DNA of 64,000 nucleotides from contig JAJZTW010000002.1 in assembly GCA_021847345.1 (NCBI GenBank), positions 62,001 through 126,000 on the forward strand, written 5' to 3'. The stretch's first letter is position 1, and each line of letters opens with the position of its first letter. The position numbers and the translations under genes are program-made. The notes below the pieces were generated by a model that made no database searches, had not been told where the DNA came from, and was given only the letters and a program-made list of their open reading frames with translations. The stretch comes from Pseudomonadota bacterium (GTDB taxonomy: Bacteria; Pseudomonadota; Gammaproteobacteria; Burkholderiales; Burkholderiaceae_C). Below are positions 8,584 through 57,854 of the stretch, one piece after another.

Positions 8584-9528
8584 ATGGTGCATCCGGGAAC
8601 TCCTCGGGAGAGCAGCTTGCGTGCGCATCGGCATCTTCGCATCGGCCTGGCATTGGGCAGCGGCTCGGCACGCGGGTGGTCGCATGTCGGCGTGATCCGC
8701 GCGCTGTTGCGCGCCGGCATCGAGCCCGACATCGTCTGCGGCAGTTCCATCGGCGCGCTGGTGGGGGCGGCCTACGCGGCCGGCGAGATCGATCGCCTGG
8801 AGCCCTGGGTCGCGTCGCTGACCCGCCAGGGGGTGATGGGACTGCTGGACTTCCGCCTGTCGTCGGGAATGATCGAGGGGCGCAAGCTGATGCGCTACTT
8901 TCGCGAACGCTTCGACGATCCGGGAATCGAGAAGCTGCCGCGTTGCTTCGCCTGCGTCGCCACCGAGCTCGACAGCGGGCGCGAGGTGTGGCTGCGCGAC
9001 GGCCCGGTGATCGACGCCGTGCGCGCGTCCATCGCGCTGCCCGGGCTGTTCACGCCCATGCAACGCGACGGCCGCCTGCTGGTCGACGGCGGGCTGGTGA
9101 ACCCGGTGCCGGTGTCGCTGTGCCGGGCCATGGGCGCCGACGTGGTCGTCGCGGTGGACCTGAACTGGGACCTGGTGGGCCGGCGCACGCACAGCGCGCC
9201 GTCGCTGTATGCCGAGCCGCAAGGCGCGCCTTCGACGCCGGCGCGGGCGCGCACGCTGGATTCGCTGTGGAAACGCCTGTGGCCCAGCAGCGACGAGCCG
9301 CCGGCGCTGCCGATGCCGTCGATGCTGGGCGTGCTCGCAGCCAGCCTGAACATCATGCAGGTGCGCATCACCAACAGCCGGCTCGCCGGCGAGCCGGCCG
9401 ACGTGGTCGTACGCCCGCGCGTGGCGAGCATCGGCCCGATGGACTACCACCGCGGCGAGGAGGCCATGGCCGCCGGGCAGCGCGCCGCCGAGCACGTGCT
9501 GCCGATGTTGCAGGAATTGCTCGCCTGA
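8584..9528 (+). CDS. rssA: patatin-like phospholipase family protein (RssA-like)
   Basis: [34 protein letters not shown] (GxSxG), [11 protein letters not shown]; start codon uncertain. Confidence 0.85.
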
Positions 9529-34268: not shown

Positions 34269-35621
34269 ATGCGTTTCGTGCTTCTCCGCCTGCTTGCCGT
34301 CGTCGCCGTGCTCGCGCTGGCCGGGGCCGCGGTCGCCTACTGGCTGGGCCCGACCGCCGGGCTGGCGCTGGCCTGCGCGCTGGCCGTCGGAGTCATCGCC
34401 TTCGACACCCTGGCGCGTGCTCGCCTGCTCGAATGGCTGCGCTTTCCGCAACGCGACACGGTGCCGCAGTCGCCGGGGGTGTGGGGCGAGGTGTTCTACC
34501 GCAGCGCGCGTCAGCTGCGGCTGTGGCAGAACCGGGTGCAGCGCGAGGAGAACAAGCTCAGCCGCTTCATCGAGGCGCTGCAGGCCTCGCCCAACGGGGT
34601 CATGCTGATCGACGAGCATGGCCAGATCGACTGGTGCAACGCCACCGCCGCCGGGCATTTCGGGCTGGATCCCCAGCGCGACATGCGCCAGCATGCGGTG
34701 CACCTGATCCGCAATCCGGAATTCGTCGCCTACCTGGCGGCGCGCCAGTTCGCCGAGCCGCTGCTCATGCGCCGCAACGGCAGCCACGGGACCGTGCTGC
34801 TCAGCGTGCAGGTCATTCCCTATGGCGACGGGGACAAGCTGCTGCTGTCGCGCGACGTCACCCAGCTCGAGCGCACCGAGGCCATGCGGCGCGATTTCGT
34901 GGCCAACGTGTCGCACGAGATCAAGACCCCGCTGACCGTGATTGCCGGTTTTGTCGAATCCCTGCGCACCCTGGAGTTCTCGGCCGACGAGCGCGAGCGC
35001 ATCCTGGAGCTGATGCAGCAGCAAAGCGATCGCATGCGCCAGCTGGTCGAGGACCTGCTGACCCTGGCGCACCTCGAGGGCGACCCGCACCAGCCCGCCG
35101 AGGAGCTGCTGGACATGCCGGGTGTCGTCGCGCGCCTGGCGGCCGACGCGCGCGCGCTGTCGGCCGGCCGGCATCGCATCGAGACCAGCGCCGACGTCAG
35201 CAAGCTGCGCGGCGCCAGCAGCGAGCTGGCGAGCGCCTTCGGCAATCTGGTGAGCAACGCGGTGCGCTACACCCCGAACGGCGGCGTGATCCAGATCCGC
35301 TGGCGCTTGCTGGAGAGCGGGCTGGGCGAGGCCATCGGCGAGTTCAGCGTCAGCGACACCGGGATCGGCATTGCCGCCGAACATATCCCGCGCCTGACCG
35401 AGCGCTTCTACCGCGTCGACCGCGGGCGTTCGCGCGAGTCCGGCGGCACCGGGCTGGGCCTGGCCATCGTCAAGCACGCGCTGCTGCGCCACCAGGCCGA
35501 GTTGCGCATCGTCAGCCAGATGGGCGAGGGCAGCACGTTCAGCGCGCGCTTTCCCGCGCAGCGCCTGGTGCTGCCGCAGCCCGAGGCCACGTCCGAGCCG
35601 GTCGCCGCGCATCCGGCGTGA
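34269..35621 (+). CDS. phoR: phosphate sensor histidine kinase PhoR
   Basis: PAS-like region; FVANVSHEIKTPLTVIAGFVESL H-box; GGTGLGLAIVKHAL; downstream of phoB. Confidence 0.96.
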   Translation: MRFVLLRLLAVVAVLALAGAAVAYWLGPTAGLALACALAVGVIAFDTLARARLLEWLRFPQRDTVPQSPGVWGEVFYRSARQLRLWQNRVQREENKLSRFIEALQASPNGVMLIDEHGQIDWCNATAAGHFGLDPQRDMRQHAVHLIRNPEFVAYLAARQFAEPLLMRRNGSHGTVLLSVQVIPYGDGDKLLLSRDVTQLERTEAMRRDFVANVSHEIKTPLTVIAGFVESLRTLEFSADERERILELMQQQSDRMRQLVEDLLTLAHLEGDPHQPAEELLDMPGVVARLAADARALSAGRHRIETSADVSKLRGASSELASAFGNLVSNAVRYTPNGGVIQIRWRLLESGLGEAIGEFSVSDTGIGIAAEHIPRLTERFYRVDRGRSRESGGTGLGLAIVKHALLRHQAELRIVSQMGEGSTFSARFPAQRLVLPQPEATSEPVAAHPA

Positions 35622-35625
35622 GAGT

Positions 35626-35790
35626 GCCCCCAGGGCCGGGCCTGGGGCCCGACCCGTTCCACCTCGCAGCTTGCAGGCTGCTCGGATTCGGCCGGCGCGC
35701 TGCTGTGCGCAGGCACAGCAGCTGGTCCGGCCTCATCCCCCGTGGGGGTCGAGAAAACTTGGGGCGGCCCTGCGTTTTCTCGTGAGCGCC
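35626..35790 (-). repeat. degenerate inverted copy of the intergenic three-hairpin repeat (54-bp core identical to 55331-55384)
   Basis: 35737-35790 is the reverse complement of 55331-55384 with no mismatches; the other repeat end GCCCCCAGGGCCGGGC lies at 35626-35641; unrelated internal segment between them contains hairpin GCTGCTGTG-N6-CACAGCAGC (35699-35722). Confidence 0.9.
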
Positions 35791-53925: not shown

Positions 53926-55272
53926 ATGAGTGCAACCCAATCCCAGTCCGCCATTTCCCCGCCAATGCAGGCGGCAGCAGCGCAGGCGGGCACGAGCAAG
54001 GCTCTGCTCGTGTTCGCCAGCACGCTGGGCACGACCATCGAGTGGTACGACTTCTTCCTGTACGGCGTGCTCACGCCGCTGGTTCTCAATCGCCTGTTCT
54101 TTCCCGACCTGTCGCCGGTGATCGGCACCATCGCGGCGTACACGACCTTCGCCGTGGGCTTCCTGTCGCGGCCGATCGGGGGCATCATCTTCGGGCACTT
54201 CGGGGATCGCATCGGTCGCAAGACCATCCTGGTGCTGACCATGCTGATCATGGGCGGCTCGACCTTCCTGATCGGCGCGTTGCCGACCACCGCGGCGATC
54301 GGCGTGGCCGCGCCGCTGCTGCTGCTGTTGCTGCGCGTGCTGCAGGGCATCGGCATCGGCGGGGAGTGGGGTGGCGCGGTGCTCATGACCATCGAGCACG
54401 CGAGTCCGGGGCGGCGCGCCTTCTACGGCAGCTGGCCGCAGCTGGGCGTGCCGCTGGGCCTGATGACCTCGGCGGCAGTCGTCGCCGTGCTCAACCTGCT
54501 GCCCGACAGCGCGTTCCTGGCCTGGGGATGGCGCGTGGCCTTCTTTCTCAGCGGCCTGCTGGTGGCGATCGGGCTGTACGTGCGCCTGAAGATCATGGAA
54601 ACGCCCGACTTCGAGCGGGCGCGCCGCGAGCGCCGCATCGTCCCGGTGCCGGTGAAGACCATGTTCCGGGACTTCAAGCGCGAGGTGCTGCTCACGCTGG
54701 GCGCGCGCTACGTGGAAGGCGCCTGCTTCAACACCTTCGGCGTGTTCAGCATCTACTACATCACCCATGCCCTGGGGCTGTCGCGCGGACAGGCGCTGGA
54801 CGCCGTGATCATCTCGTCGGCGCTGATGCTGCCCTTCATCGTGCTGGCTGGCTGGCTCGCCGACCGCTACGGACTGCGGCGGGTGTTCGCCTTCGGCTCG
54901 GTGTTCATCGCGGCCAGCTCGGTGTTTTCGTTCTGGATCATGCACAACTGGGGCGCCCACCATTTCGGCGTGGTGCTGCTGGGCCTGATCATCCCCTTCA
55001 CCTTCGGCTATCCGCTGGTGTACGGGCCCGAGTCCTCGCTGTTCGCCAGCCAGTTCGACGCGCACGTTCGCTACACCGGGGTGTCGTTCGCCTACCAGTT
55101 CTCGGGCATTTTCGCCAGTGGACTGACGCCGCTGATCGCCACCGCGCTGATCGGCGCCGGACATGGCAAACCCTGGCTGGTGGCCGGCTACATGGTGCTG
55201 GTGTCCGTGATCAGCCTGGTGTCGGTGATGCTGATGCGGGGCGTTTCGCGCTCCGACGCGCAGCGCGCCTGA
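53926..55272 (+). CDS. MFS transporter, metabolite:H+ symporter (MHS/ShiA-like)
   Basis: STLGTTIEWYDFFLYGVLTPLVLNRLFFP; RPIGGIIFGHFGDRIGRKTILVLTMLIMGGSTFLIGALPT; LQGIGIGGEWGGAVLM. Confidence 0.9.
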   Translation: MSATQSQSAISPPMQAAAAQAGTSKALLVFASTLGTTIEWYDFFLYGVLTPLVLNRLFFPDLSPVIGTIAAYTTFAVGFLSRPIGGIIFGHFGDRIGRKTILVLTMLIMGGSTFLIGALPTTAAIGVAAPLLLLLLRVLQGIGIGGEWGGAVLMTIEHASPGRRAFYGSWPQLGVPLGLMTSAAVVAVLNLLPDSAFLAWGWRVAFFLSGLLVAIGLYVRLKIMETPDFERARRERRIVPVPVKTMFRDFKREVLLTLGARYVEGACFNTFGVFSIYYITHALGLSRGQALDAVIISSALMLPFIVLAGWLADRYGLRRVFAFGSVFIAASSVFSFWIMHNWGAHHFGVVLLGLIIPFTFGYPLVYGPESSLFASQFDAHVRYTGVSFAYQFSGIFASGLTPLIATALIGAGHGKPWLVAGYMVLVSVISLVSVMLMRGVSRSDAQRA

Positions 55273-55303
55273 GCTCTGTCGCGGGCCTTGCGGCCCGCGG
55301 GAG

Positions 55304-55497
55304 GCGGGCTGGGCGCAGCCCGGCCCTGGGGGCGCTCACGAGAAAACGCAGGGCCGCCCCAAGTTTTCTCGACCCCCACGGGGGGCGGGCTGGGCGCAGC
55401 CCGGCCCTGGGGGCTCTCGAGAAAACGCAGGGCCGCCCCAAGTTTTCTCGACCCCCACGGGGGGCGGGCTGGGCGCAGCCCGGCCCTGGGGGCTCTC
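55304..55497. repeat. tandem intergenic three-hairpin repeat, unit 79 bp (about 2.5 copies)
   Basis: Units at 55340-55418 and 55419-55497, partial unit 55304-55339; each contains GAGAAAAC...GTTTTCTC, CCCCC-ACG-GGGGG and GGGCTG-GGCG-CAGCCC stem-loops; fills the gap between two convergent genes. Confidence 0.95.
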
Positions 55498-56929
55498 AGC
55501 ACAGTCCGTGGCGTTGGCGCCAGGCGCCGAACATGTCGTCGATGCCCGGTTCGTCGGGCATGCACGGTGACGCGATGCGCGTGATGTTGAGAAAGTGCAG
55601 GTAGTTGAGGTTGTCCGAGATGCTGTTGCCGCCCCAGGTTCCGCAGCCCATGGACAGCGAGAACGGCAGCCCGTTGTCGAAGCTTCCGCCGGTGGCGAAG
55701 CAATGCGCCTGGTTCACGATGATCCGGCATGCCGGCATGGTCAGGCCCAGTTGCAGCGCGCGTTCGGGCTTTTGCGAATGCAGTCCGATGGAGTGTCCGG
55801 CGCCCTCGAAGCCGTAGATTTCCCGAACGATGTCTTGCGCATGCTCAAAGTCCCGTGCACGGTACACGGTGAGCACCGGGGACAATTTCTCCCCCGAGAA
55901 CGGGTACCCGGGCCCGATGCCCGTTTCCTCGACCATCAGGAAGCGCGCCGATTCGAAGCCGTCGCCTTGCAGCCCGGCGACGTGGGCGATCAGCGGGGCA
56001 GCCTTGGCCGTCACCGCCGGCGACAGCTTGCCGGCCGGCCACATGGCCTGCTGCAGGCGCTGTTTTTGCCGTTCGTCGAGCAGCACGCCGCCTTCGGCCT
56101 GCAGCGCGCGCAGCATGTCCCGGTAGACGGACTCGACGATGACCACGCTGTTCTCCGAAGAACAGCTGGTGGCGTTGTCGAAAGTCTTGGAGCGCCGGAT
56201 CCGGTTCGCCGCCTGCGCCAGATCGGCGGTCTCGTCGACGATCACCGCCACATTGCCGGCGCCCACGCCGATGGCAGGCGTGCCGCTTTCGTACGCGGCC
56301 CGCACATTGTTCTGCGAACCCGTGACCACCACCATGTCCACCTGGCGCATCAGCTCCAGCGTGGCGGACTTGCTCACCGGAGCCGGCAACTGCTGCACCA
56401 GGTCCGCCGGCGCGCCGACGCGGCGCAGCTCCTCGGCGATGTAGCCCAGCAGCAAGGTACTGGTGCCATGGCCCTTCGGGGAGGGCGACACGATGATCGC
56501 ATTGCGCCCCTTGAGTGCGTTGATGATCTTGTTCGCCGGGGTCGCTGCCGGGTTGGTCGACGGAGTCACGGCGCCGACCACGCCCACCGGGCGGGCGATC
56601 TCGATCACGCCCCGGGCCGGGTCGTCGGAGATCACCCCCACCGAGCGGGCCCCGCGCAGGTCGCGCAGCAGGCCCAGGGTCTTGCGGTGGTTCTTGATCA
56701 ACTTGTCCTCGACGTTGCCCAGGCCGGTGTCGGCCACGGCTCGTTCGGCCAGCGCGCGGTTGCGCGCCGGCTCCATGATGGCCCAGCCGACGGCCAGCAC
56801 CACGTCGTCGACCTGCTGCTGGCTGAAGGTCTCGTAGACGCGCTGTGCGGCGCGCGCGCGTGCCACGCATTCGGCGACCTGCCGGCGCACCGGGTCGGTC
56901 TCGGGGGAGGCGGATGTGTTCATGTCCAT
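55496..56929 (-). CDS. CoA-acylating aldehyde dehydrogenase, SauS/EutE-like (possible sulfoacetaldehyde dehydrogenase)
   Basis: Aldehyde dehydrogenase fold: GVVGAVTPSTNPAATPANKIINALKGRNAIIVSPSP; FDNATSCSSENSVV catalytic Cys; SMGCGTWGGNSISDNLNYLHFLN C-terminus. Confidence 0.82.
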   Translation of the reverse strand: MDMNTSASPETDPVRRQVAECVARARAAQRVYETFSQQQVDDVVLAVGWAIMEPARNRALAERAVADTGLGNVEDKLIKNHRKTLGLLRDLRGARSVGVISDDPARGVIEIARPVGVVGAVTPSTNPAATPANKIINALKGRNAIIVSPSPKGHGTSTLLLGYIAEELRRVGAPADLVQQLPAPVSKSATLELMRQVDMVVVTGSQNNVRAAYESGTPAIGVGAGNVAVIVDETADLAQAANRIRRSKTFDNATSCSSENSVVIVESVYRDMLRALQAEGGVLLDERQKQRLQQAMWPAGKLSPAVTAKAAPLIAHVAGLQGDGFESARFLMVEETGIGPGYPFSGEKLSPVLTVYRARDFEHAQDIVREIYGFEGAGHSIGLHSQKPERALQLGLTMPACRIIVNQAHCFATGGSFDNGLPFSLSMGCGTWGGNSISDNLNYLHFLNITRIASPCMPDEPGIDDMFGAWRQRHGLC

Positions 56930-56987
56930 GGGAGGATCCTCGACGGGTCTGGTGGAGGCCCGGCGCCAGGGCGCCGGGCAGTGGTTT

Positions 56988-57854
56988 TCAGGCTGCCGCA
57001 TCGGGCCCATCGGCCGCATCGGCCGCATCGGTGGCATCGGTGGCATCGGTCGCATCGGTCGTCGCCTTGGCGGCGCCGCGGCTCCTGCGCGCCGGGGTCG
57101 AAGGCAGCATCGCCGCGATGGCATCGGCCGCTTCGCGCAGCGCCGGCAGGTGACCCAGCAAACCGTCGATGTCGTAGCGCGCCAGCGGCGCCTGCACGGC
57201 CACCGCACCCCACGCGCGATAGCTGTCGCGCATCACCGGAACGGCGATGGACACCATGCCCTGGATGAATTCCTGGTCGTTCATGCCCACGCGCCGGCGT
57301 CGGGTGTCGGCCAGCTCCTGGCGCAGCCGCGCGGCGTCGGTGATGGTGAACTGGGTCATGCGCCGAAGCGGCAGCGCGTCGACGATGCGGTTTCGCATCG
57401 CAGCCGGCTGCAGGCTCAGCAGCAGCTTTCCGCTGGATGTGCAGTGGATCGGCACATGCGAGCCGGCCTGCAGGTGCATGCGCAGCGGGGAGTCGGTTTC
57501 CACGCGGTCGAGGTAGACGATCTGGTCACCGTCGAGCGCCGTCAGGTTCACCGTCTCTCCCAGGGCCTCGCCGAGCTTGCGCAGCACGGCGTGGCGCGCG
57601 GTGGCCGGCCCGGTGTGCATGAGCACCGAGATGCTCATCTGGCGTACGCGCGGGCCGCATTCGTAGCCCTGGCCGTCGAGGTTGCGAACGACCAGCTGCG
57701 CCGCGCCAAGGGTTTTCAGGATGCGATGCACGGTCTGCTTGGGCAGCTGCAGGCCCTCGGCGATCTGCATCAGGCTCATGGATTCGGAACCGCTGAGCAG
57801 TTCGAGCACGCGGAACGCGCGCACCGCCGCGGCATTGGACTGGTTCGAGTTCAT
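56988..57854 (-). CDS. IclR-family transcriptional regulator with low-complexity C-terminal tail
   Basis: RAFRVLELLSGSESMSLMQIAEGLQLPKQTVHRILKTL HTH; effector domain HCTSSGKLLLSLQP; tail TTDATDATDATDAADAADGPDAAA. Confidence 0.92.
   Translation of the reverse strand: MNSNQSNAAAVRAFRVLELLSGSESMSLMQIAEGLQLPKQTVHRILKTLGAAQLVVRNLDGQGYECGPRVRQMSISVLMHTGPATARHAVLRKLGEALGETVNLTALDGDQIVYLDRVETDSPLRMHLQAGSHVPIHCTSSGKLLLSLQPAAMRNRIVDALPLRRMTQFTITDAARLRQELADTRRRRVGMNDQEFIQGMVSIAVPVMRDSYRAWGAVAVQAPLARYDIDGLLGHLPALREAADAIAAMLPSTPARRSRGAAKATTDATDATDATDAADAADGPDAAA
56995..57057. repeat. 9-bp tandem repeat (about 7 units, consensus g(c/t)(c/g)gcatcg) inside the iclR 3' end
   Basis: gccgcatcg ggcccatcg gccgcatcg gccgcatcg gtggcatcg gtggcatcg gtcgcatcg. 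Confidence 0.9.

Follow-up and report, generated by a model that had tools for sequence, protein, structure and literature searches.

How short palindromic repeats spread when no transposase is known for them is an open problem, of which the CGTC-tagged repeats are a published case. Among related systems, REPs are recognized by a 20–40-bp hairpin carrying a GTAG or GTGG foot (PMC2817692, PMC3733652, PMC6006769), and their logic combines fixed orientation, a guide-like end motif, hairpins, many intergenic copies and a lack of inverted repeats (PMC2817692, PMC3733652). For REPs no more than 15 nt from a stop codon, a lowering of translation has been reported (PMC12306157). CGTC-tagged palindromic repeats are single 8–9-bp stems with a 4–5-nt loop and a CGTC end, dispersed without a dedicated known transposase (PMC3733652), and class 3 TnpA-associated repeats are high-copy hairpins with a CnGA foot that are tied to class 3 Y1 genes (PMC6006769).

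Here we describe a hairpin array in the window, by which we mean the whole 64,000-nt stretch of DNA that was analysed and to which all coordinates refer unless a contig is named. We read the array, with a probability of about 0.82, as a group of copies of a REP-like mobile DNA element that is non-autonomous, targets GAG or TGAG and forms arrays with itself. The initial annotation had called it REP- or MITE-like, which is borne out in kind, as the repeat is dispersed, structured, non-coding and inserts at new sites; it is neither a canonical REP nor a classical MITE.

A tandem array of three-hairpin units

The array lies between a plus-strand MFS gene, whose stop codon occupies 55270–55272, and a minus-strand aldehyde dehydrogenase (ALDH) gene (ORF 55496–57208), whose TGA stop occupies 55496–55498. 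It spans 55294–55493 on the minus strand and comprises two full units of 79 and 81 bp and a 40-bp partial unit, with unit starts spaced 81 and 79 nt apart. The initial annotation had counted about 2.5 copies of a 79-bp unit that filled the whole gap and ran into the stop codon at the last copy. The repeat is confirmed with corrections: about 21 nt beside the MFS gene (55273–55293) fall outside it, and the array has its sense direction on the minus strand, where it begins right behind the ALDH TGA. Together with G55495, this TGA forms a TGAG site directly upstream of the array. Unit 1, nearest the ALDH stop (55415–55493, minus strand, 79 nt; R1 match G000:C5:117415-117493, minus strand, 95.2 bits), and unit 2 (55334–55414, minus strand, 81 nt; 94.4 bits) take their borders from minus-strand matches to a covariance model. 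Unit 3 is represented by its 5′ part only (55294–55333, minus strand, about 40 nt) and ends beside a GCGGGCC/GGCCCGC hairpin that adjoins the MFS gene; at the junction between units 2 and 3, CTCGTGAG is followed directly by CGCCCCC.

In the sense direction, the unit (about 81 bp, range 77–81 bp) runs CGCCCCCA, stem A, stem B, stem C and NNGAG, with a 5′ start that reads GCCCCCA before stem A. All three hairpins originally proposed for each unit are present. In unit 1, stem A (55466–55481, minus strand) is GGGCTG-GGCG-CAGCCC and reaches up to nine pairs when its outer part is included; stem B (55452–55463, minus strand) is CCCCC-AC-GGGGG, of the almost invariant family form CCCCC-NN-GGGGG; and stem C (55419–55449, minus strand) pairs GAGAAAAC with GTTTTCTC around the 15-nt loop TTGGGGCGGCCCTGC. 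The same stem C arms, GAGAAAAC and GTTTTCTC, enclose the loop of unit 2 (55340–55370, minus strand), and the stem C core matches three times in the window compared with 0 matches in 100 shuffles.

Across 51 diverse units, 93% of cells are paired. Shuffles give 85.7%, and sliding the partners lowers the figure to 58% or less. Changes on both sides are seen in 86 cells, where shuffles predict 21. Covariation is strongest in stem C, where 9 of 10 pairs show changes on both sides; stem A (helix 1) shows them at 5 of 9 pairs across the family, and stem B has none, its G-run being able to pair alternatively with the 5′ GCCCCC. The stem C loop reads TTGGGGCGGCCC(T/G)GC and is nearly invariant across the family, an invariance that is partly a product of sampling because units were chosen through this conserved loop. 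Predicted folds of the unit are stable. Covariation alone cannot separate an RNA function from a role as a transposition substrate. One unit, at L024, is a recombinant whose arms come from two subfamilies (CAAGCAATC and GTTTTCTCG) and whose stem C is broken.

A second copy of the type found in the ALDH array lies on the plus strand of the window at 35625–35786, directly behind the TGA stop (35619–35621) of a 450-aa gene (34269–35621). It accounts for the third stem C core match in the window. Another hairpin-rich module separates its stems A and B, and its right end is CTCGTGAG. The module, ATGAG-GCCNG...GCGAGGTGGA, occupies 35656–35735 and occurs also at L178, L171, L182, L154 and L111; within copies of the first element it stands in both orientations and at differing positions. 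It seems to represent a further repeat family associated with TGAG. No autonomous version of the element, with left and right ends far apart, was found among the resolved pairs, which are composites of 120–216 nt, eight pairs of at least 400 nt lying outside that set.

Family size and host range

The REP-like reading of the initial annotation depended on further copies in the host genome, and these are abundant: at least 69 matches were counted in the genome (G000; 3.66 Mb in 117 contigs), spread over about 40 places, most of which have one to three head-to-tail units and are intergenic. The element is present in 22 of 25 genomes of the genus, which we identify as Thiomonas because one member (G041) is identical to Thiomonas sp. 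FB-6 across 1.8 kb, and a search at the DNA level found it in 0 of 16 genomes from other Burkholderiales genera. A covariance-model scan across the order was positive in at least 15 of 399 genomes and at least 11 of 159 genera, a patchy distribution in which the counts are lower bounds, as 11 candidates were scored per genome. Named hosts among the matches listed by a pattern scan are Thiomonas, Xenophilus, Piscinibacter, Ideonella, Pelomonas, Roseateles and Zoogloea.

An Rfam search gave no match at the gathering score, its sole match being a sub-threshold microRNA family, and no description of the family was found in the open-access literature, subscription papers lying outside that search. 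There was no phage match, including in IMG/VR, and plasmids gave three partial matches only. The plasmids JN106167.1 and JN106175.1, from uncultured bacteria, carry half-unit matches (about 91% identity over 54 bp) at a gene annotated as sdpA.

Insertions differ between close relatives

Several lines of evidence indicate that the element is or recently was mobile, because insertions are polymorphic at specific sites in both directions, junctions are exact at several of them and array length has changed.

First, 14 of 14 sites compared are empty in the closest relative (G015), at local identities of 71–96%. At the site with 96% identity (L025), G000 reads AAGCTGAG, then TGCCCCC...CTCGTGAG, then CGGTGGTCGGG, and the empty site in G015 reads AAGCTGAGCGGCGGCCGGG; the insertion is 81 bp long and lies directly behind TGAG. 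Junctions are also base-exact, with flank substitutions allowed, at L011, L017, L022 and L030, and exact to within one substitution at L012, L019 and L170. They are ambiguous at L029, and at L018, L024, L168, L172 and L180 the flanks are too diverged for base-exact assignment.

Second, the polymorphism is reciprocal. At one site G015 carries two units and G000 is empty, with TTGAG joined directly to CGGAG. Third, a site common to both genomes holds three units in G000 compared with two in G015.

Precise loss could in principle account for the absences in G015, but the array is missing at the L025 and ImuB sites from most other members of the genus as well, which counters this. At the ALDH site, the relatives that have the ALDH gene lack the array, although the gene downstream differs in them. 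Arrays stand behind the stop codon of the same imuB-like gene in Thiomonas sp. FB-6 and in this genome (L228, L173), with most relatives empty; this common site reflects either independent hits or patchy loss. At L012 (G000:C81, near 9210–9286), a unit lies in frame within a small lipoprotein gene, to whose signal-peptide region it adds 27 codons.

Target site, arrays and stop codons

Cleanly resolved insertions sit 3′ of (T)GAG, and TGAG falls within the last seven bases of 93 of 153 distinct left flanks, compared with about 0.55% at random positions of the window. The two flanks of an insertion have no more than GAG or AG in common (GTGAG and AAGAG at L011, ACAG and TGAG at L012). There is no constant 4-bp target duplication; the insertions may have one of 2–3 bp. 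Arrays are exclusively head-to-tail, an arrangement that we attribute to the NNGAG at the 3′ end of the unit, because it offers the next target. Several arrays mix subfamilies (L004, L017, L023 and L173), and arrays of near-identical units probably arose by duplication.

With heuristic gene calls, 20 of the 38 evaluable arrays in G000 lie 3 nt (14) or 5 nt (6) behind the stop codon of a gene in the sense direction, and stop-adjacent copies are in sense orientation, usually 3–5 nt past TGA. Stop codons make up 7% of all TGAG sites in the window and 37% of its non-coding TGAG sites. The excess of stop codons over non-coding TGAG sites is weak (22 of 38 arrays against 15 of 41 sites, p = 0.07, where the 22 are all arrays near a TGA stop, including two looser cases). 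Adjacency to stop codons is mostly explained by the TGAG target together with the loss of insertions into genes: as TGAG sites elsewhere are mostly intragenic, TGA-G stops are often among those at which insertions survive.

Search for a mobilizing enzyme

The initial annotation had pointed to a RAYT gene as a check; a search for Y1 (PF01797) gave 0 matches in the draft assemblies of both G000 and its closest relative, G015, and thus detected no RAYT. An IS110-type transposase (PF02371) is likewise absent from both drafts, as is an IS91/ISCR-type Y2_Tnp (PF04986), a family that is present in 8 of 28 genus genomes and for which the control genomes also gave no match. The two assemblies comprise 117 and about 210 contigs, respectively, and are 92–93% complete. 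Draft assemblies often lose multi-copy IS elements, so a missing transposase gene is not proof of its absence from the organism.

The array could be a canonical REP or BIME that is moved by a RAYT, a Y1 HUH transposase, encoded in the genome or since lost from it. The fixed orientation, guide-like end motif, hairpins, lack of inverted repeats and many intergenic copies all follow REP logic, Y1 genes are present in 10 of 28 genus genomes, and the assemblies are drafts. We nevertheless judge this explanation improbable, as Y1 is missing from both genomes with recent insertions and the element has no GTAG, GTGG or CGTC foot. Further, all three element-free genomes (G005, G020 and G021) carry both Y1 and IS110 genes, compared with 7 of 22 element-bearing genomes for each, a pattern that is only suggestive at n = 3. 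In the Y1 loci that were fetched, the sole trace of the element is a weak match (L305) that lies several kb away from a Y1 fragment.

We accordingly rejected a RAYT link on the absence of Y1 from the draft assemblies of G000 and G015 despite their recent insertions and its presence in every element-free genome. Derivation from IS110-type or IS91/ISCR-type elements was rejected because their transposases are absent from the same two drafts. The fetched IS110 loci contain two partial copies of the element only (L339 and L348).

Effects at transcript 3′ ends

The position of many copies behind stop codons raises another explanation, in which the host maintains the array as a 3′-end device, either a terminator, possibly bidirectional, or a stabilizer of mRNA 3′ ends. 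The sense orientation and the typical spacing of 3–5 nt past TGA agree with such a device, as do the stable folds and a weak terminator-like match on the sense strand of each full unit. As the main role, which the initial annotation had considered possible, it is nonetheless quite unlikely, for the sites are not conserved among close relatives and one copy lies inside a signal-peptide coding region (L012). Moreover, the array at L172 is followed by a native intrinsic terminator (GGGGCCCC..TTTTT), and G015 has a comparable terminator without the array. The T-run of the unit lies within a stem arm, in place of which other copies carry GATTGCTTG, GATGGCTTG or GCTTACTTG. Departures from pairing on the sense strand show no excess of G-U (17, compared with 32 A-C). 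Insertions could still affect termination, stability or translation as a side effect, translation perhaps through their nearness to the stop codon, as reported for REPs (PMC12306157).

A spread with no transposition, in which ancient copies undergo homologous recombination, slippage and gene conversion alone, would accommodate the difference between three and two units in an array and hybrid units that join the left arm of one subfamily to the right arm of another, as at L024, but is very improbable given single units at base-exact new sites whose unrelated flanks share just GAG with the element, because recombination between existing copies would not yield such sites.

Proposed model for a self-arraying mobile element

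For the mobile element that we favour, the sites suggest the following mechanism. A unit would insert in fixed orientation directly 3′ of GAG, best TGAG. Its NNGAG end would then present a fresh GAG behind which another unit could insert, and either this or duplication would give arrays of one to three units. A putative trans-acting enzyme would recognize the hairpin fold together with the invariant loop, the DNA probably being single-stranded, and would join the element ends at the target; effects on mRNA 3′ ends would be side effects. Hairpins, a one-sided target, fixed orientation and a lack of inverted repeats would together suit a single-stranded DNA mechanism. It is a tentative and still doubtful extension of this reading that the repeats constitute a betaproteobacterial hairpin family that inserts 3′ of (T)GAG, recreates its own target and has a mobilizer other than a Y1, IS91-type or IS110 transposase.

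Base-exact insertions that differ between close relatives, combined with a defined target, mean that the mobilizer can be sought directly. Landing 3–5 nt past stop codons, which varies between sister species, could simultaneously change how dozens of genes are translated or where their transcripts end. In annotation, the element will show up as spurious ORFs, extended genes and contig breaks.

Comparison with known systems

The element is REP-like in its working, yet it lacks the features that define RAYT-associated REPs and MITEs. Classical MITEs are, like it, small non-autonomous mobile elements. However, comparisons of filled and empty sites give ends of CGCCCCC.. and ..NNGAG with no terminal inverted repeats, and there is no target-site duplication of constant length, the flanks sharing GAG or AG only. 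Integron attC sites were considered and rejected: they have RYYYAAC/GTTRRRY ends, and the AAC/GTT is missing in subfamilies such as CAAGCAATC/GATTGCTTG.

Class 3 TnpA-associated repeats resemble the element as high-copy hairpins with a foot tetranucleotide that contains GA (PMC6006769), but they are tied to class 3 Y1 genes, the search of this genome found no Y1 gene, and the foot sequence is unmatched. Similar to CGTC-tagged repeats, the element is dispersed without a dedicated known transposase (PMC3733652); it differs from their short single stems, small loop and CGTC end in both sequence and structure.

The closest likeness in kind is to the REP/RAYT REPtrons, including the SMAG repeats of Stenotrophomonas, with which it shares a short structured form, many mostly intergenic copies, a fixed end motif and subfamilies with complementary stem changes. 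By contrast with GTAG- or GTGG-tagged REPs, whose foot on a 20–40-bp hairpin is absent here, the unit is about 80 bp long (77–81 bp), folds into three hairpins with a conserved 15-nt loop, follows a left-flank consensus of (T)GAG with TGAG as its target and ends 3′ in NNGAG.
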